A DNA stretch of 50,434 nt from the IMG/VR virus record IMGVR_UViG_3300047317_000401, positions 1 to 50,434 of that record, one strand, 5' to 3'. The notes under the pieces are model-generated. The model did no database searches. It saw only the letters and a list, made by a program, of their open reading frames with translations, and was not told the DNA's origin. This document shows, piece after piece, positions 1-50,434 of the stretch. The position numbers were made by a program, and so were the translations under genes. How positions within the stretch are numbered: the stretch's first letter is position 1; every line of letters begins with the position of its first letter. The DNA is from a virus.

Positions 1-127
1 CATGCGCATGGTGGACCTGGAGCGCCAGATTATCGCCGCGAACACACCGCCGCCCCCGCCGCCGCCCCAGGACGACCAGGACGCCCCTGAGAGCGACCAG
101 GACGCCCCTGGCGCCGATGGCGAGGCT
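1..127. repeat. Terminal direct repeat (copy 1), circular-assembly overlap
   Basis: Bases 1-127 are identical to 50308-50434, and the open frame of the CobT-like gene continues exactly across the join. A 127-base perfect overlap at contig ends is what a k=127 de Bruijn assembler leaves on a circular or circularly permuted molecule. It is therefore most likely an assembly artefact of circularity rather than a physical terminal repeat. The unique length is then about 50,307 bp. Confidence 0.95.
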
Positions 128-1366
128 CAGGACGCCCAGGACGCCCCTGAGAGCGACCAGGACGCCCCTGGCGCCGATGGCGAGGCTCAGGACGCCCGGG
201 ACGCCCCTGAGAGCGACCAGGACGCCCCTGGCGCCGATGGCGAGGCTGGCGAGGCTCAGGATGACCAGGACGCCCCTGAGAGCGACCAGGACGCCCCTGG
301 CGCCGCTGGCGAGGCTCAGGACGACCAGGACGCCCCTGGCGCCGCTGGCGAGGCTCAGGACGCCCAGGACGACCAGGACGCCCCTGAGAGCGACCAGGAC
401 GCCCCTGGCGCCGGTCACGGCGACGGTTCCGAGACTTACAGCCTCGACGACGCGCCCGAAGCCTCCGAAACCCTGGCCGAAGTCACCGAGGCTATCACCG
501 AGCGTCAGGCACCCGACGCGCCGACACCCATGGGCGGAGGCTTGCATGGGTATCGCAATGTCCTGGTGAACCTGCCGGCGCGCCTGTCCAACGACGCAAA
601 CCCGCTGGCGCATGTCCAGGCATACAATGCCGCCTTGCCGGGACGCGCCGTCTTGCATGGCCAGATTTCGCGGCTGCTTGTGTCGCCGGAACGCGTGAAC
701 GTGACACACCGCGAAACCTCTGGCCGGCTTGACCGCCGCGCGCTGGCGCGGCTTGGCACGGGCGCCATGGATGTGTTCAGCCGGAAGCAAGAGACCGCCG
801 GCATGGACACTGCCTTGCTTGTGCTGATCGACCTGTCCAGTTCCATGCGCGGCGCGGCGCACGCCATGGCCTGCGTGACCGCGTTCCACCTTGCCGCCGC
901 CGCCGATGACGCCGGCGCCAAAGTGGCCGTGTATGGTTTCATGAACCCCGATGAACCCATGGACGTGGCGACCGCCCGGATCGTTTGCTTGCTACCGTTC
1001 GGGATGCCGGTCCGGCCCAATGCTCACCGCATCATGGCCGTTGGCCCGCATGTCACGACGCCCCTGTCGCCGGCCATCCTGGGATGCGCCGAAGTGTTGC
1101 GCGACGTGGACGCCACGCGCCACGTGATGATGGTCTTGACCGATGGCGATTGCGATTATGGCAATGCTTGCGTGACCGATGCCTGCCTTGTCGCCAGGAC
1201 GTGGGGCGTTGAGGTGGTTGGCGTGGGCATGGCCGCGCCCCAGGTCGCGGCGGCTTTCCCGGACGGTCACAGCGTCAACGTCCCGACCCTGGCCGCGCTT
1301 GGCCAGACCGGGTTGGGCGTGCTGGCGCGGATGCTGGAGGAAGCCGCGCCGGATCTGGGCGCATGA
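2..1366 (+). CDS. CobT-like metallopeptidase/vWA protein, C-terminal part (gene spans the contig join)
   Basis: This is the 3' two thirds of the gene that starts at 49661; position 2 is in the same frame as 50309, and the joined gene has 670 codons. This part holds a run of seven prolines, an acidic tandem repeat (about residues 240-355), a linker, and a von Willebrand factor A domain. The metal-ion site motif DLSSS (D493, S495, S497) follows the hydrophobic strand LLVLI, and a later TDGD also fits the fold. In the known family (CobT, and the vWA partners of MoxR ATPases) the vWA domain is the metal-binding adaptor that docks with an AAA+ ring. An acidic low-complexity linker before the vWA domain is also a CobT trait. 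The upstream neighbour is the matching AAA+ ATPase. The real substrate here is unknown: cobaltochelatase activity is unlikely because no other cobalamin gene is present. The stop overlaps the next ATG (ATGA). Confidence 0.9.
   Translation: MRMVDLERQIIAANTPPPPPPPQDDQDAPESDQDAPGADGEAQDAQDAPESDQDAPGADGEAQDARDAPESDQDAPGADGEAGEAQDDQDAPESDQDAPGAAGEAQDDQDAPGAAGEAQDAQDDQDAPESDQDAPGAGHGDGSETYSLDDAPEASETLAEVTEAITERQAPDAPTPMGGGLHGYRNVLVNLPARLSNDANPLAHVQAYNAALPGRAVLHGQISRLLVSPERVNVTHRETSGRLDRRALARLGTGAMDVFSRKQETAGMDTALLVLIDLSSSMRGAAHAMACVTAFHLAAAADDAGAKVAVYGFMNPDEPMDVATARIVCLLPFGMPVRPNAHRIMAVGPHVTTPLSPAILGCAEVLRDVDATRHVMMVLTDGDCDYGNACVTDACLVARTWGVEVVGVGMAAPQVAAAFPDGHSVNVPTLAALGQTGLGVLARMLEEAAPDLGA
71..415 (+). 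repeat. In-frame tandem repeat, 60-bp unit, acidic (DAPESDQDAPG...)
   Basis: Five near-identical copies of a unit beginning gacgcccctgagagcgacc start at 80, 140, 200, 269 and 377. The intervals are 60, 60, 69 and 108 bp, and one truncated copy lies inside the last interval. Each unit encodes about 20 residues rich in D, E, Q, A and P. All spacings are multiples of three, so the frame is kept. Near identity at DNA level suggests recent slippage or unequal recombination, so copy number probably varies between isolates. Confidence 0.95.
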
Positions 1367-2157: not shown

Positions 2158-4596
2158 TCAGTCAAAGCCCGCCGCGCCCCGGCGATTGGCTTGCGCGGCA
2201 TACACAGCCAACAGATCAGTGGCGGTCATGTTGTCCAGCCCGGGATCAACGTCACGTCTTGCCCAGAACCGTTGCCCCCGAGAACCCGTGGCTTTTCCGT
2301 GGTTTAGCTTACGACACCCGGCTTTCACCAGATACCGTCCCACCGTTTCCACGGAGGGAACGCGCACGCCAGGGCCAACACCTTGTCCCCCGTGGCGGAC
2401 CGCATGGGTCAATCTGTCCACGATGTCCCCGGACGTGAAGATGTCCGGCAGCGTGAGCGGGTCAGGTGGGACACGGCCCAGCGTGTCCCGCAGCCACGTC
2501 AGCACGGGACCGGCGCCACGCTCGATGAGTTCAAGTTTGTCCCGGGTCAAGGGCGCCTTGCCCAGAACCTCATCCAACATGATGCTCTCGTCCCAGTATC
2601 GGATCAGCCACTCGACCACGGCATGGGCATTGGTTTCACCCCACGGGGCCGGCGCCTCGAACCACGCGGCCAGTCTTTGGTGCCGCGCGTCGTCCCACCC
2701 GGGATCTTTCACATTGATGACCCATATGCGCCGGTCGTCCTCGGGCAAGGTCATGGGCCGGTCCTCGTTGGATGTCATCACCAGGACGAATATGTTCCTG
2801 ACGTTGATCGCCTTCATGTATTTCTCGTTGACCATGTCATGCTTGCGGCCAGGATCGCACATGCGTTTGAGGGCCGTGTATTGATCGTGGTCGGTGGTGA
2901 CGCCGCGCGTGGTGTGGCGAACCTCGGCCATCATCACGAGACGGTTCATCATCCAGGCGTTGTAGATGCCGTTGAACATGGTCTGGGACACAGTGGTCGC
3001 CCGCTCCGGTCCCAGGACCTGGATCAAGGGCGCCCAGATTTGTTCCTTGCCCGTGCCTTGCTGTCCGATCAGCAGGGGATTGTGGCCCGGTTTCACGTTC
3101 ACCGCGCCCACGGTCATGGCCATGTAGAACCGCAGGCGCCGGGCGTTCTCGGTGTCCTCGAACGTCGTGTTCCCGCAAAGCGCGTCGATCAAGGCCCACC
3201 AGTCGCTGGTCCTGACATGGGTGTCCAGATCGGGGGACGGGGCCAGCGCCAGGGTTTTCGTCGATATGTCGATCCATAGGTTCAGTCGGCTCTCGGTGCC
3301 GCCCGATAGCGTGACACAACGAAATACGCGGGGTTGCCCTGGCGCGAAGTCCCGGCCCGCGAGAATGCGCCGTCGATGCACGTTGCCCAGATACCACGTC
3401 GCCGGGGTGGGGGCCTTGGTCTTCTTGCCCTTTGGTTCCGGCAGGTAATCGCGCAGCACGGGCGCCCAACAGGCGTTGAACGCTCGCTCGCTCAGTTCTT
3501 CACCCGTGGTCAGGTTGATGAACTTTTCCTCGGGCGCCAGGTAGGCCGTGGCGTCCCAGAACTCGCGTGCCGTGTCCGGTCCCGCGTTCGGCGGCAAAGG
3601 GCTGGGGGGCACCTTCGCCGGGTCCACCGCGTCAAACCGGTTGGGGTCGAAGTCACCCAGGCCGAACAGCCCGCCGGTCATGTCGCTTATCATCTCATCG
3701 ACCCGGCGACGCACGTCTTCCGGCGAGCGTTTGTCGCAATGGCCGTGCCAGCATTTGAAACCGCCGCCCCGGAAATACACGGTCCCGGTGTCCACGGCGG
3801 TCGAGGGTGAGTGTTCATGCACCCAGGGACAGGTCACGTCCCAGCCGGTCCCCTGCGCTGTCTTGCGTGCGTTTCCCCGCACCAGACCCAGTTTACGCAT
3901 CGCTATCAGGGTGGGGTCCGCCCGGCTTTGTCCCGGCGCGACCGGGATCGGCGCGGGCGTGGTCCCCGCATCGAACGGATCAGGTTCCGGGACCGGCGGC
4001 GTGGCCGTGTCCAGCGGGGCGGGCAGTTTGGCGGGATCGTGGGTTGGCCCGCCTGAAGCGACAACGCGGCTCGCGTGGGCGGGCGTGTGTTTGGTGTTCG
4101 CCCCAAAGGGCAAACGCATGAGCCGCGTCACGCCGGCCATGCCGGGGTCCTTGCCGCCGGCCAGCGCCCGGATCGCCGCGTCGATCAGGGCGGTGGCCTG
4201 GGTGCGGTCGGTGACGGGCGGGTCCAGCACGTAGCCCCACTGTTCGTTGCCGGGCGAGGTTTCGAGCCGATAGGTGGGCTCGCCCAGGGTCGCCCGTGTC
4301 AGCGCCGGGTCCACCTTGGGTCCCACATCGTCCACCGCCAGGACGCGCAGCGCCTTGAAGTTGGCCTTGCGCCTGATGCCTGGGGTATCCATGAGCGACA
4401 CGCAGAAGTAATTGTTCCAGTCCGGGTTGAGCGTGTGGATACAGGCCCCGGCGGGTCTTGTGTTCCAGAAAGGCTTATACTTGTCGTCCTGTCCCAGCGC
4501 CGGGACCGAACAGACTTCCGCGTGTATCCAGGCGTCCCCGAAGATCATCTTCAGGAATGTTTGGATGTTGTTGACGGCGGGCGTGTTTTGAGGCAT
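2158..4596 (-). CDS. Primase-helicase (AEP/zinc-ribbon/D5-like superfamily 3 helicase)
   Basis: This 812-residue protein probably primes and unwinds phage DNA at the fork. The N-terminal third resembles archaeo-eukaryotic-type primase-polymerases of phage and plasmid replication proteins. A middle zinc-ribbon-like region has CPWVHEH followed by CWHGHCDK. The C-terminal half is a D5/P4-type helicase with the Walker A variant GQQGTGKE, then SNEDRPM and the EDDRRIWV segment typical of this group. It is the only replicative helicase candidate. Its gene lies opposite in direction to the polymerase operon and beside the candidate origin at 1865-2157. The ATG at 4596 has AGGAG about 20 nt upstream, which is far for a ribosome site, so the true start could differ slightly. 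Helicase assignment is firm; the primase part is inferred from domain order. Confidence 0.85.
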   Translation of the reverse strand: MPQNTPAVNNIQTFLKMIFGDAWIHAEVCSVPALGQDDKYKPFWNTRPAGACIHTLNPDWNNYFCVSLMDTPGIRRKANFKALRVLAVDDVGPKVDPALTRATLGEPTYRLETSPGNEQWGYVLDPPVTDRTQATALIDAAIRALAGGKDPGMAGVTRLMRLPFGANTKHTPAHASRVVASGGPTHDPAKLPAPLDTATPPVPEPDPFDAGTTPAPIPVAPGQSRADPTLIAMRKLGLVRGNARKTAQGTGWDVTCPWVHEHSPSTAVDTGTVYFRGGGFKCWHGHCDKRSPEDVRRRVDEMISDMTGGLFGLGDFDPNRFDAVDPAKVPPSPLPPNAGPDTAREFWDATAYLAPEEKFINLTTGEELSERAFNACWAPVLRDYLPEPKGKKTKAPTPATWYLGNVHRRRILAGRDFAPGQPRVFRCVTLSGGTESRLNLWIDISTKTLALAPSPDLDTHVRTSDWWALIDALCGNTTFEDTENARRLRFYMAMTVGAVNVKPGHNPLLIGQQGTGKEQIWAPLIQVLGPERATTVSQTMFNGIYNAWMMNRLVMMAEVRHTTRGVTTDHDQYTALKRMCDPGRKHDMVNEKYMKAINVRNIFVLVMTSNEDRPMTLPEDDRRIWVINVKDPGWDDARHQRLAAWFEAPAPWGETNAHAVVEWLIRYWDESIMLDEVLGKAPLTRDKLELIERGAGPVLTWLRDTLGRVPPDPLTLPDIFTSGDIVDRLTHAVRHGGQGVGPGVRVPSVETVGRYLVKAGCRKLNHGKATGSRGQRFWARRDVDPGLDNMTATDLLAVYAAQANRRGAAGFD

Positions 4597-12349: not shown

Positions 12350-12612
12350 GCGCCGCCGAGTTCATTTTCGTCGATCTGCCCAGGCTGTCCCGGGCGATTG
12401 ACGATTTGCTGGTGGCGCATCACGGGCTGCGTCACTCGCTGGACGCCGTGAAGCGGGCTCCCGTGCCGTTCACGGTGGGCGAGGCCACGGCGATGGAAGC
12501 CTTCGGCGTCGGTTCGCCGCTGTTCCATCTATGGAACGAGTGCCGTCTGGTCGAGGCGCTGCGCGTCGCCTGGACCGGTCAGCCCTCGTCTGTTCCTTCA
12601 ATAACGGAGTAA
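12346..12612 (+). CDS. Hypothetical protein, 88 aa
   Basis: The start overlaps the stop of the membrane peptide. The product is helical, with DLPRLSRAIDDLLVAHHGL and a central VGEATAMEAFGVGSPLFHLW, and no metal or membrane motif. It is one of several short cassette proteins between the ssDNA-binding protein and ParB-like gene. I do not recognise the family. Confidence 0.7.
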   Translation: MSAAEFIFVDLPRLSRAIDDLLVAHHGLRHSLDAVKRAPVPFTVGEATAMEAFGVGSPLFHLWNECRLVEALRVAWTGQPSSVPSITE

Positions 12613-12617
12613 ACCTG

Positions 12618-13652
12618 ATGCCCGGTGCGATCAAAGATATTCCGCTTACTCAGATCCACTCAAACCCTTATCGGGACCTGGCTACCTATCCCTGGATCGA
12701 GGCCAAGGTTGAACAGTTAATGCGTTCGATTGAGGAAGTCGGGTTCTGGGAAGGGATCATAGCCCGTCCGGTTGGGGACCGGTTCGAGACCGCGTTCGGC
12801 CATCACCGGATCGAGGCCGCTCGCCGGTTGAAACTGAAAACAGTGCCCTTGATCCTGCGGTCACTGTCAGACCGGGATATGGTTCGCTTCATGGGCCGGG
12901 AGAACGGTGAGGACTATAACAGCGACTTCCTGGTCATGCTGAACACCTGGGAAGGCGCGGTCCGGTTTTTCCCGTCGATCGACGGGAAAAAGCAACCCCT
13001 TGAAATGGCTAAACTTTTAGGTTGGACGCAGCCCCATACCAAGCAGAAAACTCCAGACGGTTATATCCAGATGACGCCGTTGGCCGCTGCCTGCGCGGCG
13101 GCCTACGAGTTGGTTCGCGATAAGCATATGCAGCGAGCGGATATGCGTGGTCTGACAGTTTCAGCCGCGCGTGAAATCGTGGTCGTGGCCCGTAAAGATA
13201 TCGCGGGGTTGCAACGCGTTTCCGATATGAACCACAACTACACCGAGACAGAACTTGACGCGGCGAAAAAGATCGTTGGTAAAAGCGCCAAAAACACCGC
13301 CGATGATTATCGTAAGGGCAAACTGGCTCACAAGGATTTACGAACGGAAGTCCAACTGAACGTCTTACGGCACGCAAGACGCGACAAGCCAAAACTGCTA
13401 CCATTGTTCGCTGACTTCAGTAAAGCGGTGGTCAACAAGATCGACGGTATGCTGAATGACGACCGCGTGGCGCGGCACATAGATGAAATCGTCAAGGTGT
13501 TGCCGGAGATCACGCTGGAGGAAGATCACGCCACGATCCGGGACATCCATCACAGCCTGGGCCAGCTTACCCGGCGCGCGGACAAGGCGGTCGTGCGAAC
13601 AACACCGAGTAAAGTCGTGAAACTCAAGGCGATCACGGAGGACCGGCCATGA
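12618..13652 (+). CDS. ParB/sulfiredoxin-fold nuclease-like protein
   Basis: 344 residues from ATG 12618 with GGAG 10 nt upstream. The N-terminal ParB domain is clear: IPLTQIHSNPYRDL, EVGFWEGIIARPVG, then FGHHRIEAARRLKLKTVPL. The GRENGEDYNSD and WTQPHTKQ segments match the ParB helix-turn-helix part. No ParA is present, so plasmid-like partition is doubtful; ParB-like proteins in phages also act as CTP-dependent clamps, nucleases or regulators. Base composition is visibly lower in G+C than in neighbours and it lacks the GGGAC-rich style of the rest, which suggests later acquisition. The next gene starts inside its stop. Confidence 0.85.
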   Translation: MPGAIKDIPLTQIHSNPYRDLATYPWIEAKVEQLMRSIEEVGFWEGIIARPVGDRFETAFGHHRIEAARRLKLKTVPLILRSLSDRDMVRFMGRENGEDYNSDFLVMLNTWEGAVRFFPSIDGKKQPLEMAKLLGWTQPHTKQKTPDGYIQMTPLAAACAAAYELVRDKHMQRADMRGLTVSAAREIVVVARKDIAGLQRVSDMNHNYTETELDAAKKIVGKSAKNTADDYRKGKLAHKDLRTEVQLNVLRHARRDKPKLLPLFADFSKAVVNKIDGMLNDDRVARHIDEIVKVLPEITLEEDHATIRDIHHSLGQLTRRADKAVVRTTPSKVVKLKAITEDRP

Positions 13653-16562: not shown

Positions 16563-19500
16563 TCAGTGGGCCTTCTTCGGCGGCTCGCCCTGGGTCTTGT
16601 ACTGGTGCCCCCGGTAGCCCAGGAGTCCGACGCCACTCGCCCCGGCGACCGCGCCGATGGCCACCTTGCCGGCGCCGGGGACGATCTTGAGCATGGGCAT
16701 CAGCACGTCATCGGTGAGCCCCAGCATCCACGAGGGCAGGCCCCCGGCGGCGGCGTTCTCCTGGCCCGACACCGACTCATCCAGCGGCGGCAGGCCCTCC
16801 AGGGGCGGCGGCGCGTAGGGGTCCTTGGGTTCCTTCTTGATCGTCGTGCCGCGCTCCCCGGCCACGCTGTCGGTGATCGCCCGCGAAACCGTGGTCGAGG
16901 TTCCCGCCACCGACATCGCCGCGAGCAACCCCGAAAGCGGTCCGCCCGCCGGGACCATGGTGGAGAGTTTGGTCAGGCCGGCGAGGAAGGCCGGTTTGGC
17001 GGTCAGTTGCCCCAGCGCCTGGACGGCGTTGTAGACCTCGGTGTTGGTGCCCACGCCGCCCTTACCGCTGATGGCGTGGCCGACGCCTTTCACGATGTCC
17101 GTCAGGTAGCGCATCTCGGTGGCGAGGTAGGGGCCTTCCATCAGCGCCGACGTATCCGACCTGTAGCGCAGGCTGGTGATCGCCTGTCCTATCGCGTCCA
17201 TGGGACCGGCCATGCCCGACGCGCTGACGGTGTTGGAGAGCAGCCAGTCGCCCAGGTCGCCGTCGTCTTCGTGCTTCTTCCACGCCGGATGGTTGAACAG
17301 GTAAGTGCGCGGGACATACATGAGCCCGGTCCCGGCCAGCAGCGCCATGCCGGCGACAGCCGTTCCCACCCAGGACTTAAAGCGCGCCGCCTCGGCCTGA
17401 AACGCGGCGCCCGTGGGGCTCGCGCCCTGGGCGATCTGGCGATCCCATTCCCGTTGCCGGACGTGCCCCGCCTTGTGCAGCACGGGCTCCATGACGTTGC
17501 GCCAGAAGCCGTAAGGGAACGCGGTCAGTTGCGCCATCATGTTCACCATGGGGTTTTGCAGCGCCCCCATGGGCTTCTCGGCGGCGGTCGGGTCCTGCGA
17601 CATGCGATTGAGCATACGGTTCGCGGCGACCTCGTAGAGCCCGCCCATCGGGTGGTTCTCGATGGCTTCGCGGGTAGGCAGATCAGGGAAGGACTCCAGG
17701 AACTTCCGCATCTCGGGCATCTGCGCGTCGTTGATGAACCAGTCGCGCAGCAAGGTCTTCGCGTCGGCCTGACGGTTAAGCTGGCTCCGGCCTTGGGCGG
17801 GGTCGGTGGCGAGCCGCAGGAGGACCTTCATGTGATCGGTCCCGGCGCCCAGGGTCGCCGCCCTGATCCAGCGCACCGCCGGGCTGAGCGCCAGTTCAAA
17901 GTAATTATGCATGAACTTTTCGATGGTGGGCGAACCCGAGTAGTCGCTGAACCGGGACGCCGACGCCGCGCCCTGGAGCCGGGACTGGGTGCCGCCGATG
18001 GCCCGCAGCACCGCCATGCGCTCGGCGGCGGTCCCGGTCCTGAGCGCCGCCGCGCCCATGTTGGTGAACGTCTTGAACAGCATCTTGGGCGAGCCGCCCG
18101 CGAGAAGCGTTCCAAAGGGCTCGCCTATGGCGCTGATCGAGGCGCCGGGCAGGGTGATGAGCGCGCCCACCGACGAGGCGAGGTTGGTGATGCGCTCCAA
18201 CGCCGGGTTGTTGCTCCGCATCGAGCGACCCGTGACGGTCTCCACGATCTTCTTGATCGGCTCGTTGAACGCGCTGTGCATTCCGCCCAGTTCGATGGCG
18301 TCGTTGACGGCTTTCTGGATGCCATGGCCGTCTTGGCCGAACAGTTCGGTGAACGCGACCTTGCGGGAGACGCCGTGGACATAGCTGGGGATCATGTCCA
18401 GGACGTTGGTGTGCATCCAGTTCCGCATGATCTGATCCGCCTCGGGCGGTAGGGTTCTCCCCTTGGTGAACTTGCTGTCCGGTCCCAGCGTATTGAAGCG
18501 CGTGGGGCTCCCCGACGCGATGGCGTCGTAGACGTTCTCGGCTTCGTGCCCGGCCAACTGGTCCCGAACGTGGTCCCGCCACAAATCATGCAGATCCTGG
18601 TTTTCCTGGACCAGTTTATCCCGCTCGGCGCGCAGCGCCGTGGGATCGTGGGTGGTCGGATTGATCGCGCCCCCGGCGGCGAGTTCTTCGTCGATGGCGG
18701 TGATCCGGCGCAGGTTGCGGGTGGTCTGGTTCATCGCGTCCCGCGCGGCGGGATCGAACAGCCCGCTGTTCCGCGTGCTGGCGTCGGTCTCCCGCCACCA
18801 TTGGTTGAGGCGGGCCACCGAGTCAGGCTGGGCGCCCAGGTCCTTGTCGAAGATGACCTGATTGAGTTTGGTCCTGTCCCGGACAAAGCCGGCGTGATCC
18901 GCGAGGATGGCCTTGTCGTTGTAGACCCGGGGGAAATACCCGCTTTTGGCGTAGGGCACGTCCATGCCGGCGGCTTTCATCCGGTCGTACTGGGCGTCCA
19001 GGACATGCGAGCGGATCGCCGCCGCCGCCCGGCGTATCTCGGGCGGTATTTGCAGCCTTGGTCCCGTGCCCGTGAGATCACGCGCGTTCTGGGGATAGGT
19101 CATTTCCCCGGTGGTCAGCGTGTGCCTGAGCATGGCGTTCTGTTCCGCCGTCAGGTAGGGGCGTTTGGTGATCCTCCCCACCAGCCCATTGTCTTTGAGT
19201 ATGTCCTCGAACTGGGATACGTCGGGGCGCTCGTAGGCGCGGGTGCGTTCCTCGTAGGTGCGCCCGATCAGGCGCCCGGAGCCCGGGTCCACGCCCAGCT
19301 TGTCCCGCAGCGCCTGGATATAGGGCCGGGCCTTGGGCGGTAGCTGGCGGATAATGCGCTCCAGATTACCAAGGGCCGAGTTCCACGTCATGGCGATGTC
19401 GTCGGCCTTGCGCACGGCGAGGCTCTTGTCCGTGGGCAGGCCCTGCTTTTCACCTTTACGCGTATCATACGTGGGCGGCGGTCTGGGCGCCTCGGGGTCG

Positions 19501-22500
19501 TGAAAGATGGCCTCGTGGTCCTTGGCGAACAGATTGGACCAACGAAGGGCGCCCAGGTCCTGGCGCAGACTGGTGAGCATACCGGGCTTCATATCCGCCG
19601 GGCGCGTCCCCCAGGGCTTCAGATCATACATTTCACTGGTGGGCGTGGCCTTGGGCTGGCTCCGGCTCAGCGTGGACGCGCGGTCGAGTTCGGTGGTTAG
19701 CTCATCGAACGCGTGGAACATGTCCAACCGGTCCATCCAGTTGGGGTAACGGTGCCTGATCTCGGCCAGGGCGCGGTCCTGGTAGGCTTTGTTCGATTTC
19801 ACCACGCCCGCCGTGTCATGCCCCGCCGCTTCCATGCGGTAGGCGGTGTAAGCCTCCCCCACGCGGGCGAAGAGTTCATGCGCTGACGCCCAATACTGAG
19901 GGTTTGGACCTCTCAGCCCGGCGGTTCGCAGGTCGGACGGCCCGATGCGCAGCCGGGACGCGCCCTTATCCAGGTTCTCGATCTCACGCCGCGCCGCCAG
20001 CGCCGCTGCTGTCGGCTGTCCCGCCGCCGTGGTCTTGCGCGCGGTCTGCTCAAGTCTGAGCCGGCGCAGCATTTCCTCGCCCCGGTTGTAGGACATGGCG
20101 TTCAGCACGCGGGCGAACGCCGACTGCACCGGGTCCTTCGGGTCCAGCGCGCCGGCCTTGGCGCTCCAGGACAGTAGCTGCTGTTTGTTCGGGTTATTGT
20201 GCAGTAAATCAGTCAAATGATCGTCGATGGCGTGCCAGTGTTCGTGCGCGTAGCTATTTGATCCGCCCGAGATGTGAATGGTTTTGTCCGCGAAACTATA
20301 GGCGCCATACCAGCTTTCGCCCCGGAAGTTCTTCGGGACCATGTGCAGGGCCAGCCGTCCATTCAGCGCGATGGTTTCCCGGGACCAGCCCAGCGCCGCC
20401 GCCATGTTGTTCATGTTTTGGTGCATATTGAGAAGCTGATCCCGCGTGACCTTGGGATCGACCTTCGGGTCCACGTCCACCTTGGCGAAGCCGTATTCAT
20501 CTTCCAGTTGCTTCGCCAGGACCCTGATCTGTTCCCCGATGGGCGCGTTGACCATGGTCTCCGGGTCGCGCCCGGAGCCGCGCAGCGCATCGTGGAAGGC
20601 TTTGCGGTATTCAGGGGTGCCGGGGCTGTAGGCGTGATCCTCGAAGGTGAGGGGGTCGCCCACCTGGGGCGTGACGACGGGTTCCAGTTCAGGCTGGGGC
20701 TTCGCCCGGGGCGGCAGCCGCTCGGGCTCGCCCGGCGCCGGGGCCTTGCGGCGGAAGCCCGCGCGGGACTCCAGGGTGCCGGGGGTTTCCTGGGCCGCCA
20801 AGGGCGCCGCCGGGGTTGTTCCGGGTGCGTTCGCTCCTTGTGCGGAAGTCTCGGGTTCCCCGGCGGTCGCGGCGGCGCGTTCCTGGTCCACCCACTTAAC
20901 GAGCCGGTCCCGCCATGTTTCGCCCGGTTTGAGCGGGTCCTTGGAGCCCGTCGAAAGGGCGTCGCGGTAGGCTTCGTCGGGCGCGTTGATCCGGTCCAGT
21001 TCGTCCAGTTTATAGGCGGGGGTGCCGGGGGTTTCGCGCGGCGTGGAGGGTGTGGACCCTGGTGACGGGGTCGGCTCCGGTGTGATCGGGATCGGTTCGG
21101 CTATCGTTCCTCTGGGTTCGGCTTGTCCCGGGACAGGTTCGCCCTGTCCCGGGACCGGCGCTGTCCCGGGTGGTTCCTCGCCGGTTACGAGCCGGCGCAG
21201 TCGCGCCCGAAGTTCAAGCCGTCGCGGCGCTGTGAGCGGTAGCGCGCCCATCTCTCGCAGGATCGCGGTAGCCGCCGCCGCGCGTTCCGGCGTTTCCGGC
21301 GTCCAAAGTCTGTCACGGCTCGCGGCGTCATCAAGGCGCACCGTATCCGCGTCGATCAGGTTGCCGTCCTTACCGAGAAAGAAACTCGACACGCTTCCGC
21401 CGCCGCTCCGCTTTTCGAGGAGAAGCGCGCCATTGACCGAAGCGGTTGGCCCGACACGAAACCTGTCCCCTGGCTCGGGACCGGTGAAGAAGCCGTTGGC
21501 CAGGGGCGCGCCGGGTTGGTGTTCGCCCGGCTCGGTTCCAGGCTCTACACCGGGGGCTGGGGGCTCCGGGGCAACAAGGGCTGGCTCGGCACCCCCCTCG
21601 CTTCGCTCGGGGGGAGGGACAGGCGGTCGAACCACGCCGGGAGCGACGCCCGGCTCAGGAGGTTGTCCGGGCCGGGGCGCATCCACGGGAACAGTTCCAA
21701 TTGGACCGGCGGTCGGCTCCATACCAGGACGGGCGGTTTCCGCGCCGGCTGGCTCACCGGTCGGGACGGCGGCGGGCGGTTCGGGAATAACAGGGGCGGC
21801 GGCGGGCTCGCCGGGACGGGGTTGGGCTGTGGTAACATCCGGGGGTGTCTCCCTTGGTGGTATGGGTGGGGGCTCAGGCGAAGGCATGGGCGTCGTGATC
21901 GGCACGGCCTCGCCCGGCGCCACGCCCTCGGGCGGGGGACGGACCAGATCGGTGAAAGGAGTGGGACGCGATGGAATGGGCGGTGGTTCTGTCGCTGGTG
22001 CTGTCGGTGGCGTCCCTTGTCCTGACGGTGGTGGCGCTGTTCCTGATCCATCGCCGCTGGTGGTAGCGCCGCCGCGCAGCCGCGTGGCGAGTTGGCTCCC
22101 GTAATGCTGGCCGTAGTGCATGACGCCCCCGGCGACACCGCCGCCGATGGCGTTCTCGATGGCGCCCTGGATCATCTCGTCAACGCTCGGCGTCGGCTGG
22201 CCCGTGATGGCGGGGTCGATCACGCCCTGTTTGATGGCGCCGGTCCCGGGACCGGTCACGGCGGCGTGGAACAGCAGGTTGCCCACCACGGATTTCACCG
22301 CGCGGAGACCGAACAAGGGCGCGGTCAGGCCCGTGAAGGCGCCAGACGCTTCGGCCACGTGATATGCCTGATTGACGGCGGCGTCGTGATCGAGGCCCTG
22401 GCGCAGCGCGTCCTCGTAAGCGGGTATCAGGCTCTGAGCGAAGTCGGTGACACTACCGCCCAGCGCGCCGCCGGCCAGTCCGCCGACGACGCCGCCGACG

Positions 22501-23033
22501 GGACCGCCCACGGCGGTTCCCGCCGCCCCGCCGCCCAGGGTGCCCAGGAACATCGAGGCCAGCGTGGGCGCGCTGTGCGTCAATCCGTAGACAATCCGTC
22601 CGCCGGGCGTGCGCTCCACTTGCGGCGGCGCCTCGGTGGCGCTGAACGCCTGCCCGGTGGCGAGTTGACGGGTCTCCCGGTTCACATCGCCCAGCGCGGC
22701 TATGCCGCTGTCCCACATCCCTTGCCGCGTGTCAGGCGGTTCCGGTGGCGCGTTGGGGTCCGGCGGCGGCGTGAAGATCGCCCCCAGATCGGTCATCGGC
22801 ATGGGCTGCGGCATGGACTGGGGTAGGGACGTGGCGGGCGCCGGGACAGGGACCGGCGTGGTCGTCGCCGGGGGCGGGTCCATCGTCCAGCCATTCGCTG
22901 ATGTGGCGGGCGCCGGGGCGGGGTTTGGCGTGGTCGCGGGAAGTGGGTCCATCGTCCAACCGCCGTTGGTCGGCGCCTCGGTGGGCGCGGGGGGCGGGTC
23001 CAGCGTCCAACCGTCCAGGGGCGGCGGCGGCAT
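16563..23033 (-). CDS. Giant internal virion/ejection protein (T7 gp16-like position), 2156 aa
   Basis: The longest gene; it starts directly after the transglycosylase stop (TGAATG). In podoviruses the protein in this position is packed inside the head and ejected to form the channel across the envelope. The N-terminus has three copies of GWT(M/L)DPxPA (residues 8-60). A long Pro/Glu/Thr-rich segment covers about 310-800, and there are Ala/Gly-rich hydrophobic stretches near 170-210 and in the last 500 residues. A HEHWH motif (H930-H934, HExxH) in SYAHEHWHAIDDH suggests a zinc-metallopeptidase domain. The lytic transglycosylase that T7 gp16 carries at its N-terminus is here the separate upstream gene. 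The role is inferred from position, size and composition. Confidence 0.8.
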   Translation of the reverse strand: MPPPPLDGWTLDPPPAPTEAPTNGGWTMDPLPATTPNPAPAPATSANGWTMDPPPATTTPVPVPAPATSLPQSMPQPMPMTDLGAIFTPPPDPNAPPEPPDTRQGMWDSGIAALGDVNRETRQLATGQAFSATEAPPQVERTPGGRIVYGLTHSAPTLASMFLGTLGGGAAGTAVGGPVGGVVGGLAGGALGGSVTDFAQSLIPAYEDALRQGLDHDAAVNQAYHVAEASGAFTGLTAPLFGLRAVKSVVGNLLFHAAVTGPGTGAIKQGVIDPAITGQPTPSVDEMIQGAIENAIGGGVAGGVMHYGQHYGSQLATRLRGGATTSGDGSGTAPPPSGQGTPPTAPATEPPPIPSRPTPFTDLVRPPPEGVAPGEAVPITTPMPSPEPPPIPPRETPPDVTTAQPRPGEPAAAPVIPEPPAAVPTGEPAGAETARPGMEPTAGPIGTVPVDAPRPGQPPEPGVAPGVVRPPVPPPERSEGGAEPALVAPEPPAPGVEPGTEPGEHQPGAPLANGFFTGPEPGDRFRVGPTASVNGALLLEKRSGGGSVSSFFLGKDGNLIDADTVRLDDAASRDRLWTPETPERAAAATAILREMGALPLTAPRRLELRARLRRLVTGEEPPGTAPVPGQGEPVPGQAEPRGTIAEPIPITPEPTPSPGSTPSTPRETPGTPAYKLDELDRINAPDEAYRDALSTGSKDPLKPGETWRDRLVKWVDQERAAATAGEPETSAQGANAPGTTPAAPLAAQETPGTLESRAGFRRKAPAPGEPERLPPRAKPQPELEPVVTPQVGDPLTFEDHAYSPGTPEYRKAFHDALRGSGRDPETMVNAPIGEQIRVLAKQLEDEYGFAKVDVDPKVDPKVTRDQLLNMHQNMNNMAAALGWSRETIALNGRLALHMVPKNFRGESWYGAYSFADKTIHISGGSNSYAHEHWHAIDDHLTDLLHNNPNKQQLLSWSAKAGALDPKDPVQSAFARVLNAMSYNRGEEMLRRLRLEQTARKTTAAGQPTAAALAARREIENLDKGASRLRIGPSDLRTAGLRGPNPQYWASAHELFARVGEAYTAYRMEAAGHDTAGVVKSNKAYQDRALAEIRHRYPNWMDRLDMFHAFDELTTELDRASTLSRSQPKATPTSEMYDLKPWGTRPADMKPGMLTSLRQDLGALRWSNLFAKDHEAIFHDPEAPRPPPTYDTRKGEKQGLPTDKSLAVRKADDIAMTWNSALGNLERIIRQLPPKARPYIQALRDKLGVDPGSGRLIGRTYEERTRAYERPDVSQFEDILKDNGLVGRITKRPYLTAEQNAMLRHTLTTGEMTYPQNARDLTGTGPRLQIPPEIRRAAAAIRSHVLDAQYDRMKAAGMDVPYAKSGYFPRVYNDKAILADHAGFVRDRTKLNQVIFDKDLGAQPDSVARLNQWWRETDASTRNSGLFDPAARDAMNQTTRNLRRITAIDEELAAGGAINPTTHDPTALRAERDKLVQENQDLHDLWRDHVRDQLAGHEAENVYDAIASGSPTRFNTLGPDSKFTKGRTLPPEADQIMRNWMHTNVLDMIPSYVHGVSRKVAFTELFGQDGHGIQKAVNDAIELGGMHSAFNEPIKKIVETVTGRSMRSNNPALERITNLASSVGALITLPGASISAIGEPFGTLLAGGSPKMLFKTFTNMGAAALRTGTAAERMAVLRAIGGTQSRLQGAASASRFSDYSGSPTIEKFMHNYFELALSPAVRWIRAATLGAGTDHMKVLLRLATDPAQGRSQLNRQADAKTLLRDWFINDAQMPEMRKFLESFPDLPTREAIENHPMGGLYEVAANRMLNRMSQDPTAAEKPMGALQNPMVNMMAQLTAFPYGFWRNVMEPVLHKAGHVRQREWDRQIAQGASPTGAAFQAEAARFKSWVGTAVAGMALLAGTGLMYVPRTYLFNHPAWKKHEDDGDLGDWLLSNTVSASGMAGPMDAIGQAITSLRYRSDTSALMEGPYLATEMRYLTDIVKGVGHAISGKGGVGTNTEVYNAVQALGQLTAKPAFLAGLTKLSTMVPAGGPLSGLLAAMSVAGTSTTVSRAITDSVAGERGTTIKKEPKDPYAPPPLEGLPPLDESVSGQENAAAGGLPSWMLGLTDDVLMPMLKIVPGAGKVAIGAVAGASGVGLLGYRGHQYKTQGEPPKKAH

Positions 23034-23588
23034 TCAGGCGAGACCCTGACCGCGCCGCGCGGCCTGGGTGAAGGCGTCCGCCAGCGACGTGGGCGCGCCC
23101 GGGGTCGGCGGCGGCAAGGACAGGGGAGGACCAGCCGGCGCCGCCGCCGCCATCAACGGTCCGGCTGGCGCGTCCGGTCCCGCTGATAGAGTTGGGCCGC
23201 CCGGCGCCGGGGGACCGCCGCCGCTGCCGCCCATGATCTTGGCGATGTAGTTTCGGGTCTCGGAGGGCAGGTTGCCCATGCCGTTCCGCGATACGTTGCC
23301 CGGTCCCCAGTTGTAGGCGGCGAGCGCGTGCGTGTAGTCGCCGCCGAACCTGTTGAGGTTCTGGCGTAGGTAGAGCGCCGCCGCCGGGATGGCCTGGGCC
23401 GGGTCCATCGGGTCGATCCCCAGGCCGCGCGCGGTGCCGGGCATGAACTGCGCGATGCCGGCGGCGCCGGACGGGTTGCGCGCGTTCGGGTTGAGCCCGC
23501 TTTCAGCCGCCAACTGGCGGCGGAATATGTCGTGATCCAGGCCGTATTTCTCGGCGGCGCCCCGGATCATGCTGTCAATATCGCTCAT
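23034..23588 (-). CDS. Virion lytic transglycosylase (SLT family)
   Basis: 184 residues. The SLT domain covers residues 1-120: YGLDHDIFRRQLAAESGLNP has the catalytic Glu of AAESGLNP, followed by GAAGIAQFMPGTARGLG and HALAAYNWGPGNV, all hallmarks of Slt-type enzymes. The rest is a Pro/Ala/Gly tail. It cleaves peptidoglycan glycan strands, probably to let the ejection proteins pass on infection, since it is coupled to the giant ejection protein. No other cell-wall hydrolase is evident in the genome, so it might also help lysis. There is no signal peptide. Confidence 0.88.
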   Translation of the reverse strand: MSDIDSMIRGAAEKYGLDHDIFRRQLAAESGLNPNARNPSGAAGIAQFMPGTARGLGIDPMDPAQAIPAAALYLRQNLNRFGGDYTHALAAYNWGPGNVSRNGMGNLPSETRNYIAKIMGGSGGGPPAPGGPTLSAGPDAPAGPLMAAAAPAGPPLSLPPPTPGAPTSLADAFTQAARRGQGLA

Positions 23589-47274: not shown

Positions 47275-47568
47275 TTACGCCACCCGGGACCGCAGCCGGG
47301 ACAGTTCGGAGACCAGTTCCTCGCGTGTCAGTTCATCGATGGGCGTCTCGCCGGTCCTGTCCGGCTTGGCTTGATGCCTGCCGAGTAAGCCCTTGATTTC
47401 GGCCAATGTTCTGGCCGCCGATGCCCTGGCCTGCGCTCCTGCGCTGGGGTCCTGGATCAGGCCGATCAAGGCGGCTTCCACGGACACAGTATGTCCCGGG
47501 ACACTGTCCACGCGCGGGACAACGGTTGTCCCGTTGGTCCCGCGTTGTCCTGTCCCGCGCCGCTTCAT
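47275..47568 (-). CDS. Candidate small terminase subunit, 97 aa
   Basis: ATG 47568 overlaps the upstream stop (ATGA). After a basic start (MKRRGTGQRG) the core EAALIGLIQDPSAGAQARAS leading into AARTLAEIKGLLGRHQ and the ending LTREELVSELSRLR resemble the short helical phage proteins that lie next to terminase genes and are often called small terminase or its DNA-recognition part. It is 9 kb from terL in the map, with the fibres between, which is unusual. The call is from pattern, not from a firm family match. Confidence 0.55.
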   Translation of the reverse strand: MKRRGTGQRGTNGTTVVPRVDSVPGHTVSVEAALIGLIQDPSAGAQARASAARTLAEIKGLLGRHQAKPDRTGETPIDELTREELVSELSRLRSRVA

Positions 47569-47972
47569 GTCCCGCGCGCCGCGCGCCATGCCTTCGCCCA
47601 CGCCAGAGGCTCACTGTCCCGGTAATCCCATGCCAGGACCAGCGCCAGCGCCAATGGTTCGCGCGCGTCCCGTGGCAGGCTCGCCATGTCCCGCCATCGC
47701 GCGGTCCCGGTCAGGTCAGCCGGTATCAGGCCGCGCCTGTCCATGCCTTCCAGAACACGCCCCGCGACACGTCCCGGCTTGTCCCGTTGCCGCCTGCCAC
47801 TGTGAGGCCAGCATGTGGCGAGACCCCGCACCGCGACCCGCCGGCATCGCACGCACTGGCGAAGCAAGGGACTGCCGAAAGGCGTCCGATACCTAAGCAG
47901 CGCCACGATGCTGGCCGGGTTGCCCTGCCAGCCCCCGCCCCGGGACCGTGGCGCCGTGTTTGGTTCACTCAT
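47565..47972 (-). CDS. Small zinc-binding protein (HGGxR-like), 135 aa
   Basis: I chose ATG 47972, just inside the divergent gap; the longer frame to 48194 overlaps the + strand ATPase. A CVRCRRVAVRGLATCWPHSG segment (Cys-x2-Cys ... Cys-x2-His-Ser-Gly) recalls the C-x-HGG zinc motif of small phage proteins near terminases. The C-terminal half is helical (DAREPLALALVLAWDYRDS) and may bind a partner. It is coupled to the candidate small terminase. Confidence 0.6.
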   Translation of the reverse strand: MSEPNTAPRSRGGGWQGNPASIVALLRYRTPFGSPLLRQCVRCRRVAVRGLATCWPHSGRRQRDKPGRVAGRVLEGMDRRGLIPADLTGTARWRDMASLPRDAREPLALALVLAWDYRDSEPLAWAKAWRAARGT

Positions 47973-48123: not shown

Positions 48124-49656
48124 ATGTCTAACGCTACACCTAGCGCCGTTTGGCGCAGCGCCATGCGCGCCGCTTTGCGCGACCGGCTCGCCAATGCCGC
48201 GCCCGATGATATCGACGCTCAGGCCGCGCGCCTGAACCTCAATGGCCGGCTTATCAATAACCTCACGAAAGCCGATTTGCGCGGCTTGCTGCGGATCGTG
48301 GGGATTGATCCGATGATGCTGCACCCCTCGCATGTCCCGGGAGCCGCGCCGATGCCTGACACCGACTCGGACGATACCGACACGGACGACGCCCGGGACC
48401 TCATGACGCCGCCCGACGCCGGCGCCGTGCCTGCCAGTGATGATGATGACGCCGCTGCGATTGAAGCGACGGTCCAGGCCGTTCGCGCCGATATCATGAC
48501 CGGCGGCTTTACCGCCCTTGACCAGAGGCTCCGGGACCTCGTCATAGCCGCGCGCAAGCCGGCTGTGGTCAAAGTGGTCACGAAGACTGTCACCGTTGAA
48601 GTTGAACGCGACCAGGACACGACGACGCCGCGCGCCGCGCCAACGGATCAGACTGTCACATGGAGGCGTGCCTTTGGTGTGCGTGGCGCTCTTGGGTCTG
48701 AGACCGCGACGGTATGGGACGGCGCGCATCCCGATACACCGTGCGTCAATGATCGTTACGTCTGGCCGGCTGAAACCGCCATCGCGCTGACAGAGATCCG
48801 GCGCGGTCATAACGTCATGCTGTTTGGTCCCAAAGGCACGGGCAAGACGGAGTTCGCGCAACAAATCGCCGCGCGGCTTGGGCGTCCCTTCGTTTTAATT
48901 TCCTGTGATGCCAGCACAGACGCCGCGACCCTGGTGGGCATGACCGTGCCGGCCCGGGACGGTAAAGGCGTGTCGTTTCAACCGGGACAACTTGTCCGCG
49001 CCATTCAAACCCCTGGCGCGGTGATTTGCATTGACGAACCCTCAATCGCGCGTCCTGGCGCCTTGTTCGCGTTGCAGAATGTGTTGACAGCAAATCGGTC
49101 CCTTTACGTCCAGGAAACGGGACAGAAGATCAAGGTGGCGCCTGGGGTTATCTTTTTCGCCACCGATAACACCAGCGGCATGGGCGGAGGTTCCAGGGTT
49201 GGCTACCATGGCACCCAGGCGTTGAACGCGGCCACGTTGGACCGTTTCGGTGTGCGGATTAAGTTGGGTTGGCACGCGCCGGACGTTGAAGCCGGGATTA
49301 TCGTTTCGTATGTCCCGGGTTGCACGATTGAACTGGCCAACCTTCTGGTGCAAGCCGCGACGACGACACGCGCGGCAGCGGATGCGCAGGTCCTGACCGA
49401 GGGTTTGGGCTTGCGCCGCTTGTTCGCATGGGCAGGACTGCTCGCCGATGGCCATGATCCTGAGATCGCGTTCCGTTGCGCGGTGCAAAATTGCGTTCCC
49501 GATGGCGAACAAGAGGCTTTGCGGCAACAGTGTTTGCTCGCCGTGGACAAGAACACCGTTCGCGCCGCGTTGAACCCCGCCGCGCCGGTCCCGTCATCAT
49601 CACCCGCCGCTTCTGACTTTGACATCGTCCCGTCCACCGATGGCGAAGGGAACTGA
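48124..49656 (+). CDS. CobS/MoxR-family AAA+ ATPase
   Basis: 510 residues from ATG 48124. The N-terminal 80 residues are helical and may dock a partner (LNGRLINNLTKADLRGLLR); 85-115 is acidic. The AAA+ core begins near 215, with Walker A FGPKGTGKTEF (K241), Walker B VICIDEP (D304, E305), sensor-like FFATDNTSG and the arginine region LDRFGVRIKL. The order of core motifs and the vWA-protein gene next to it fit CobS/MoxR ATPases, which form rings that drive metal insertion or remodel protein complexes through a vWA partner. In phages such pairs are often named cobaltochelatase but the target is unknown. Stop and next ATG are 4 nt apart. Confidence 0.88.
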   Translation: MSNATPSAVWRSAMRAALRDRLANAAPDDIDAQAARLNLNGRLINNLTKADLRGLLRIVGIDPMMLHPSHVPGAAPMPDTDSDDTDTDDARDLMTPPDAGAVPASDDDDAAAIEATVQAVRADIMTGGFTALDQRLRDLVIAARKPAVVKVVTKTVTVEVERDQDTTTPRAAPTDQTVTWRRAFGVRGALGSETATVWDGAHPDTPCVNDRYVWPAETAIALTEIRRGHNVMLFGPKGTGKTEFAQQIAARLGRPFVLISCDASTDAATLVGMTVPARDGKGVSFQPGQLVRAIQTPGAVICIDEPSIARPGALFALQNVLTANRSLYVQETGQKIKVAPGVIFFATDNTSGMGGGSRVGYHGTQALNAATLDRFGVRIKLGWHAPDVEAGIIVSYVPGCTIELANLLVQAATTTRAAADAQVLTEGLGLRRLFAWAGLLADGHDPEIAFRCAVQNCVPDGEQEALRQQCLLAVDKNTVRAALNPAAPVPSSSPAASDFDIVPSTDGEGN

Positions 49657-49660
49657 GACC

Positions 49661-50434
49661 ATGGCCACGAGCACGCTTTACCTTGAAGTAACCGCCGCCG
49701 CCGCTGAAACCGCGCGAAAGATCATCGCGCAACGGAAAGGGACGAACAACCGCCGCGCGCGCGTGACCGTTGGGACCAGGGGCGGCGCCACGGCGTCCGT
49801 CCAGGTCAATGGCTCGCATGTGCTTATGAACCTGCCGACCCTGCCGGCGTCCACCGTGCTGTCACGGTCCGAGGCTGACAGGATGCTGGGTTTCATCGCC
49901 CACGAGTGTTTGCACGTGCTGCACACGGACTGGCAGTGGTGGCACCATTGCGTGCGAGCCGGCGCCCGGGTGCGGCATTGGGCGAACTGCCTTGAGGATG
50001 TCCGCATCGAGGCGAAGGAACTCCGCGCGGGGGCCTTCCCGGCTTTGCGCGGCATCCTGAGCGCCACGATGGATAGCCTGCACTACCGGGCGTTGACCGA
50101 TGCCGGCGAGGTTGGCCGGATCATTGGCGCCAGGATTGCTGACGCGCCCTATTGCGTCGCGGTCCTGGGCCGCATGGCGAACCGCTACACCGTGCCCACG
50201 GCGCGCGGCTTGCGTGGCGCGTTGCACCCTGACGTCGCGCGGCTTGTGGATCAGGCTTTGACGGAAGTTAAATCCTGCCGGTCAACGCATGACGTTTACA
50301 GTCTGGCCATGCGCATGGTGGACCTGGAGCGCCAGATTATCGCCGCGAACACACCGCCGCCCCCGCCGCCGCCCCAGGACGACCAGGACGCCCCTGAGAG
50401 CGACCAGGACGCCCCTGGCGCCGATGGCGAGGCT
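49661..50434 (+). CDS. CobT-like metallopeptidase/vWA protein, N-terminal part (continues at position 2)
   Basis: This part encodes the first 258 residues of the 670-residue protein. It carries IAHECLHVLHTDWQWW, an HExxH zinc-peptidase signature (H81, E82, H85), followed by WANCLEDVRIEAKELR, whose acidic residues could give the third zinc ligand. This metallopeptidase-like domain in front of a vWA domain is found in predicted peptidases paired with MoxR ATPases. The start is ATG 49661 with GAAGGGAAC upstream. Both domains are intact, so a zinc-dependent cleavage driven by the ATPase is possible. Whether the site is active cannot be seen. Confidence 0.9.
   Translation, partial: MATSTLYLEVTAAAAETARKIIAQRKGTNNRRARVTVGTRGGATASVQVNGSHVLMNLPTLPASTVLSRSEADRMLGFIAHECLHVLHTDWQWWHHCVRAGARVRHWANCLEDVRIEAKELRAGAFPALRGILSATMDSLHYRALTDAGEVGRIIGARIADAPYCVAVLGRMANRYTVPTARGLRGALHPDVARLVDQALTEVKSCRSTHDVYSLAMRMVDLERQIIAANTPPPPPPPQDDQDAPESDQDAPGADGEA
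50308..50434. repeat. Terminal direct repeat (copy 2), circular-assembly overlap
   Basis: Exact copy of bases 1-127. It contains the codons just before and into the first unit of the tandem acidic repeat of the CobT-like gene. Because it includes unique sequence before the repeat, the circular join itself looks sound, although the number of repeat units beyond it could be wrong. Confidence 0.95.

Follow-up and report, generated by a model that had tools for sequence, protein, structure and literature searches.

Gene pairs annotated as cobST in phages and archaeal viruses have been read as vitamin B12 genes, and the annotation of the second protein as a peptidase was called a mistake (PMC8651126); Microcystis phage Mae-Yong1326-1 was given the same reading (PMC9503304). 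In cyanophages cobS and cobT both count among the core genes (PMC8651126), and cobS is listed as core in PMC3037559 as well. Group 2.2 jumbo phages carry a MoxR ATPase paired with a metallopeptidase-vWA protein, for which a part in virion assembly was proposed by analogy with Acidianus two-tailed virus (PMC7824862). Further, an AAA ATPase adjoins a vWA protein in a haloarchaeal virus (PMC7911831), and the vWFA core gene gp25 adjoins gp24 in N4-like phages (PMC4193335). Here we analyse such a pair, a CobS-like ATPase and a partner with a zincin-like and a vWA domain, in the virus record IMGVR_UViG_3300047317_000401, whose whole length of 50,434 bp is called the window below. Since pairs of this kind have already been described (PMC8651126, PMC9503304, PMC7824862), the window adds a member, not a kind.

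Ecological surveys list viral cobS and cobT among the auxiliary metabolic genes for vitamin B12, and marine cyanophages have both in their core genome. Should the conserved part of the viral pair be a metalloprotease site lost in true CobT, the B12 reading is likely wrong, and a machine common to phages and conjugative plasmids still awaits a function. The reading we favour, to which we give about an even chance of being right as a whole, is a machine that remodels proteins at the cost of ATP and bears a tethered metalloprotease; it would act early, on a protein engaged in the DNA transactions of the element, and would be concerned neither with cobalt insertion into B12 nor with virion assembly. 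Its parts differ in strength: a remodelling ATPase-vWA machine is very probable, an active metalloprotease in the window phage seems likely from the residues present, and a substrate related to DNA rather than to the virion is somewhat favoured. The parts of the pair, in window coordinates, are the following.

48124-49656, plus strand: AAA+ ATPase gene, CobS/CbbQ/NorQ branch of MoxR (AAA_5, CbbQ_C, phrog_249, PDB CobS 9ujv)
48826-48849, plus strand: Walker A GPKGTGKT, residues 235-242 with K241 (G235, G238, G240, K241 and T242 invariant in alignment A1)
49021-49038, plus strand: Walker B VICIDE at residues 300-305, with D304 and E305 the same throughout alignment A1
49661-50434, plus strand: partner residues 1-258, covering the N-terminal zincin-like domain and the first stretch of the linker (phrog_1576; AlphaFold2 model)
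49901-49915, plus strand: metal site of catalytic type, HECLH at H81-H85 (unchanged in all 38 full-length relatives)
49985-50011, plus strand: NCLEDVRIE (residues 109-117), second conserved helix (N109 nearly invariant; E112, D113 and E117 invariant)
50366-50434, plus strand: residues 236-258, where the acidic repeat linker begins (60-bp units in tandem)
1-127, plus strand: terminal duplicate of 50308-50434 (exact 127-bp overlap), entered once in the joined gene
128-1366, plus strand: partner residues 259-670 with the stop codon, covering the remaining linker and the vWA domain (continuity in L011; CobT_C match)
128-583, plus strand: rest of acidic repeat linker (residues 259-410), largely disordered in the model (low pLDDT; tandem repeats)
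644-1342, plus strand: vWA domain with MIDAS, about residues 431-663 (Foldseek to NorD vWA and MDN1 MIDAS)
830-844, plus strand: MIDAS motif DLSSS (D493, S495, S497), invariant in 38 relatives

The metal site of the partner is the part that carries our argument. H81, E82, H85, E112, D113 and E117, together with D493, S495 and S497 of the MIDAS, are invariant across 38 full-length relatives, and both window genes are under purifying selection (ratio of nonsynonymous to synonymous substitution rates, dN/dS, of 0.08-0.17 against close relatives). HExxH by itself arises in 3% of shuffles of the partner protein; the full zincin and MIDAS site is not a product of chance, as its invariance and the low dN/dS demonstrate. 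HExxH plus E112 is kept in 72 of 77 non-redundant N-domains. The loci L011-L057 were found by patterns that include HE and LED, and a separate count was made on partners found through the ATPase or through phage annotation, a set not selected by motif; there, HExxH...EDxxxE is kept in 33 of 40 non-redundant proteins. E112, D113 or E117 is a candidate for the third metal ligand. Profile methods were needed, since raw tblastn of the partner in phages matched only Mae-Yong1326-1.

Cellular CobT has an N-domain homologous to that of the viral partner (hhalign probability 98%, E 2.8e-13). Where the viral proteins read DHExxH...LEDxRxE, the CobT consensus at the aligned places is RG.aDa.ALrl and EqAR.EA. 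HExxH stands at the aligned site in none of 18 bona fide CobT proteins, and the sole HExxH, in L175, is found elsewhere in the frame, at residue 265. Because the homologous domain lacks both HExxH and the residues of the LED helix, the chelatase subunit CobT is, as judged from sequence, a decayed version of a zincin-like domain. The published view that the peptidase annotation was an error may be in error itself.

The partner gene is complete only on the circle. An exact 127-bp overlap common to both window ends (1-127 = 50308-50434) makes the record a circular assembly of 50,307 bp, on which the partner starts at 49661, 4 nt past the ATPase gene and on the same strand, and runs over 49661-50434 and then 128-1366 to give 670 residues. 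The join is real, because in an independent contig (L011) one uninterrupted gene specifies all 670 residues at 100% identity. A linear fragment with a truncated partner was considered and is ruled out by the overlap and by the uninterrupted gene in L011. It may be added that 127 bp is a usual assembler k-mer length and that the overlap falls where the repeat linker begins; the repeat count at the junction may be collapsed, although L011 agrees. Within the partner gene, 60-bp tandem repeats at 128-413 encode QDAPESDQDAPGADGEA-type units, and linker length differs among relatives.

The ATPase open reading frame (ATG at 48124, stop codon at 49654-49656, 510 residues) belongs with the MoxR/CbbQ-NorQ proteins, scoring 68.4 bits with AAA_5 (cut-off 22) and 31.9 bits with CbbQ_C (cut-off 20.6). 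Its best phage-family match is phrog_249 (157.5 bits), named "porphyrin biosynthesis", and phage ATPases of this type are annotated under that name or as cobS; against PDB CobS 9ujv it scores 94 bits. Both ends of the partner match phrog_1576, and the protein possesses a vWA domain of CobT type (Pfam CobT_C, PF11775, 25.2 bits, cut-off 21). CobT is its nearest solved relative, the partner profile reaching 121.7 bits with the C-domain of CobT 9uka, and NorD is matched more weakly. The first-pass annotation, made from the letters of the window, had proposed a MoxR/CobS-type ATPase with a zincin-vWA partner, and the three families scored above their cut-offs, together with the site invariant in 38 relatives, bear this out. 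The Walker A and B motifs, HExxH, DLSSS, the 4-nt spacing and the common strand that it listed are all found in the sequence, and its residue numbers (K241, H81-H85, D493) are correct on the joined 670-residue protein. Its range of 48124-50434 holds the ATPase gene and the first part of the partner with HExxH; D493 lies beyond 50434, in the continuation at 128-1366. The ATP-driven protease which it held plausible is consistent with the zincin site kept in the motif-unselected partners.

Published accounts let viral CobS and CobT join the CobN of the host and raise cobalamin for nucleotide synthesis, as auxiliary metabolic genes (PMC8651126, PMC9503304). This would agree with CobS and CobT as the nearest solved relatives, with the phage annotation cobST, with the large chain of ribonucleotide reductase scoring over cut-off in 11 of 50 related viral records (class not resolved, none in the window clade) and with CobN in 5 of 16 hosts of relatives. 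The chelatase families are, however, missed by a wide margin: the ATPase reaches 99.9 bits with the CobS equivalog TIGR01650, whose cut-off is 558.55, and the 670-residue partner matches neither the CobT equivalog TIGR01651 (cut-off 759 bits) nor the Pfam CobT N-domain PF06213. The third chelatase subunit, CobN/BchH (PF02514), was found in 0 of the 50 related viral records, which may be fragments, and the pair is not part of a B12 gene cluster, just as the first-pass annotation had it. Ribonucleotide reductase was not seen among the window phage proteins scanned. Moreover, relatives of the pair reside in E. coli, a species whose control genome yielded no CobN, and IncC plasmids of Enterobacteriaceae carry them too; in hosts without CobN the pair cannot serve as a cobaltochelatase. 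Viral partners, finally, keep the metalloprotease site that the true chelatase subunit has lost. That the pair is not a cobaltochelatase is almost as firm as its nature of a remodelling machine, and B12 supply as its role is very improbable.

Succinivibrionaceae/Ruminobacter genomes without CobN (L143, L145-L149, L151) contain a zincin-vWA gene with no CobS-like ATPase recognised in its flanks. The ATPase may be located elsewhere or have diverged, and because none was recognised nearby, these loci were left out of the argument on hosts without CobN. In an unrooted ATPase tree with no outgroup, cellular CobS falls inside the diversity of the element ATPases with modest support (SH-aLRT 86-90). 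Seen beside the loss of the zincin residues in CobT, this placement suggests, without showing, that the chelatase motor derived from element pairs.

The AlphaFold2 model of the N-domain (residues 1-235; pLDDT 95.4, pTM 0.91) has HExxH on a helix of residues 69-88 and LED on another of residues 102-123, beside a small sheet. No PDB entry was matched to this model by Foldseek at E below 0.001, and in a viral library the matches were the phage CobT/vWA family itself. In the full-chain model two good domains are formed (pTM 0.52, their arrangement being unreliable), and pLDDT falls below 50 at residues 245-268 and 270-367; linker residues 236-410 comprise 51 D/E versus 4 K/R. The best PDB match of the vWA model is the NorD vWA domain in NorQ-NorD complexes (E 2.5e-10), and the MIDAS domain of MDN1 (midasin) is matched at E 1.2e-6.

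A domain of this kind could bind metal or substrate without cleaving, which would make the pair a pure remodelling chaperone, a possibility compatible with the other roles. Cellular CobT works with a decayed domain, and in 6 of the 40 motif-unselected relatives (L170, L171, L088, L090, L095, L120) HExxH is lost and the pair kept. The machine thus works in some lineages without proteolysis, remodelling being the constant and the predicted cleavage a common but dispensable part of it. Catalytic-type residues are nevertheless all kept in 33 of these 40 relatives and in 38 of 38 full-length relatives, and we regard a purely non-cleaving pair as unlikely. HExxH is replaced by SEIAK in Pseudomonas phage hairong (L170:2520-4658) and by REVST in Stenotrophomonas phage BUCTxx99 (L171:2460-4535), in both near polymerase III alpha; these losses are apparently separate, like that of cellular CobT.

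Gene order and strand bear on timing. In the window the pair is a separate plus-strand transcription unit between the minus-strand virion block (16.6-47 kb: terminase, portal, major head protein, internal virion proteins and tail fibres) and the primase gene. Its neighbours on the virion side, both on the minus strand, are a tail fibre gene extending up to 46856 and a small open reading frame at 47275-47601; on the other side the primase gene (2158-4596, minus strand) is 0.8 kb away on the circle. A promoter scan upstream of the pair found none. The pair had been placed outside replication and virion modules, which holds as far as its own transcription unit goes and fails as regards the near primase gene and the relatives, mostly found in or beside replication and recombination modules. 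Both genes share a strand in 96 of 96 loci having both. Among related viral records, the pair lies opposite the terminase strand in 25 of 26 and on the strand of DNA polymerase A in 14 of 15. It adjoins DNA polymerase III alpha in SSU5, RHEph10, hairong, BUCTxx99 and Cyrano, gp45/gp44 (sliding clamp and its loader) and gp46/gp47 in P-HM1, and polymerase and primase/helicase in cobavirus T5S1, and is near primase/DnaB in Chidiebere. Direction and neighbours point to an early, DNA-related role.

The same architecture also exists on plasmids. Of 5426 complete E. coli genomes, 219 contain a pair of SSU5/Cyrano type with intact HEVAH, in plasmid records every time and never in the chromosome, and 1053 plasmids, 896 of them typed conjugative, have a relative. 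HExxH and the ED helix are intact in each of the four plasmid partners examined; three have the canonical DxSxS, and DKSVS of the fourth also fits DxSxS. The cassette of IncC plasmids (L203:1798-9791) is ordered ATPase, hypothetical gene, ssb, bet, exo, DUF3150 and zincin-vWA, and a Parasutterella locus (L154:3404-10883) is ordered ATPase, RecT, YqaJ exonuclease, DUF3150, zincin-vWA and Toprim primase. The exonuclease of this conserved cassette is thus of YqaJ or of lambda type, and a Toprim primase is sometimes present. DUF3150 is likely a third partner on plasmids.

These data bear directly on virion assembly, in which the pair would act as a chaperone whose peptidase matures structural proteins, a published proposal for this very architecture (PMC7824862). 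The tail-fibre genes bordering the pair in the window and its close relatives would accord with it, and some virion-protein genes are near the gp24/gp25 homologues in N4-like phage RPP1 (PMC4193335). It is at odds with transcription against the terminase and with neighbours that are mostly DNA genes. Conjugative plasmids, which bear the same pair, make no virion, so that virion assembly cannot be its general role; we consider this proposal quite improbable.

The sharing of the pair by phages, phage-plasmids and conjugative plasmids, and its place beside bet and exo in the IncC cassette, would also suit a conflict factor, acting in superinfection exclusion or anti-defence, for example by cleaving a host defence protein at DNA entry. 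Deletion of an SSU5-like plasmid raised uptake of phage and plasmid in Klebsiella (PMC8969562), an effect not traced to the pair, and PMC11541004 cites a paper whose title, as cited, speaks of CRISPR-break repair by IncC and SXT/R391 elements during conjugation. PADLOC, on the other hand, detected no known system, the ATPase displaying similarity of Walker-motif length only to IetA and others and the partner none. The defence role entertained in the first-pass annotation gains nothing from this, and the superinfection factor named there is a guess. A pair that is core in cyanophages and occurs in very different hosts is more easily understood as a housekeeping function of the element than as a weapon against particular hosts, and a conflict factor appears unlikely, though less so than virion assembly.

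We therefore return to the remodeller with a tethered metalloprotease. By analogy with its homologues, the CobS/NorQ-like ATPase would assemble as a ring, on which the C-terminal vWA domain of the partner, with its MIDAS metal, would dock as NorD does on NorQ. The flexible acidic repeat linker would tether the N-terminal zincin-like domain and give it reach; the ring would remodel or pull open a target, which the zincin-like domain, if its intact site is a guide, would cut. Expressed as a separate unit in the early-gene direction, the pair would act on a target that its neighbours hint is probably a protein on the element's DNA or acting on it, in replication start, recombination or handling of incoming DNA. 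More tentatively, and at clearly lower odds, the pair could be an ancestral ATP-driven machine with a tethered metalloprotease, widespread among mobile elements (phages, phage-plasmids, conjugative plasmids and archaeal viruses), which clears or remodels DNA-bound proteins at entry or at replication start, CobS-CobT being a later protease-dead offshoot and the B12 annotations of viral cobST being wrong.

Several points weigh against the remodeller with an early, DNA-related target. Conservation within L011-L057 is partly selected, because the search patterns include HE and LED, and the six relatives devoid of HExxH retain the pair. All 18 cellular CobT proteins compared are alphaproteobacterial, hence of one class. 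Sub-threshold PDB matches of the N-domain mix the zincins MATCAP, DUF885, selecase and M61 with unrelated helical proteins. The strand counts were taken over phages some of which are related, tail-fibre genes also lie next to the pair in the window's own clade, and an early direction with DNA neighbours would suit any early function.

The phage itself is temperate and podovirus-like. Its early genes, on the plus strand at 7.2-16.1 kb, encode a Holliday junction resolvase, helicase, exonuclease, gp2.5-like SSB, ParB-like protein and family A DNA polymerase; integrase, repressor and primase are encoded on the minus strand at 2.2-7.0 kb. The gene of the ParB-like protein (12531-13652) is situated between the SSB and DNA polymerase genes of this integrase-carrying phage. 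At 16563-23033 a 2156-residue internal virion-like protein with a weak match to the polyvalent-protein-associated LPD1 is encoded, adjoining a transglycosylase gene (23034-23588).

Compared with known systems, the IncC and Parasutterella cassettes encode both proteins of the pair, the partner retaining its zincin site and MIDAS as well as an acidic linker of low complexity; they are linked to ssb-bet-exo or to RecT-YqaJ and DUF3150, whereas the window has no adjoining DUF3150 and its exonuclease and SSB genes are about 10 kb away. NorQ-NorD and CbbQ-CbbO (PDB 9qh6, 9qhd) resemble the window pair in an ATPase ring with a docked vWA protein, which is presumed here from these homologues, and differ in activating a host metalloenzyme. 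The pair of group 2.2 jumbo phages has, by its description, the same architecture, an AAA+ gene adjoining a vWA protein with an N-terminal metallopeptidase domain; the window genome is small, temperate and podovirus-like, and the virion role conflicts with the strand data and the plasmid members. CobS/CobT (PDB 9uka, 9ujv) share the homologous ATPase, the vWA domain with MIDAS, the acidic linker and the homologous N-domain, but CobT has lost HExxH and the LED helix residues, and the chelatase proteins score far higher with their families and work with CobN. Closest among the isolates found is Mae-Yong1326-1, with the same gene pair, order and architecture, HExxH, LED and MIDAS in common, and identities of 45.8% for CobS over the AAA core and 37% for CobT over the N-domain. 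From the papers on phage cobST our account differs only in interpretation: the peptidase-type site is conserved here, and the chelatase tests fail.

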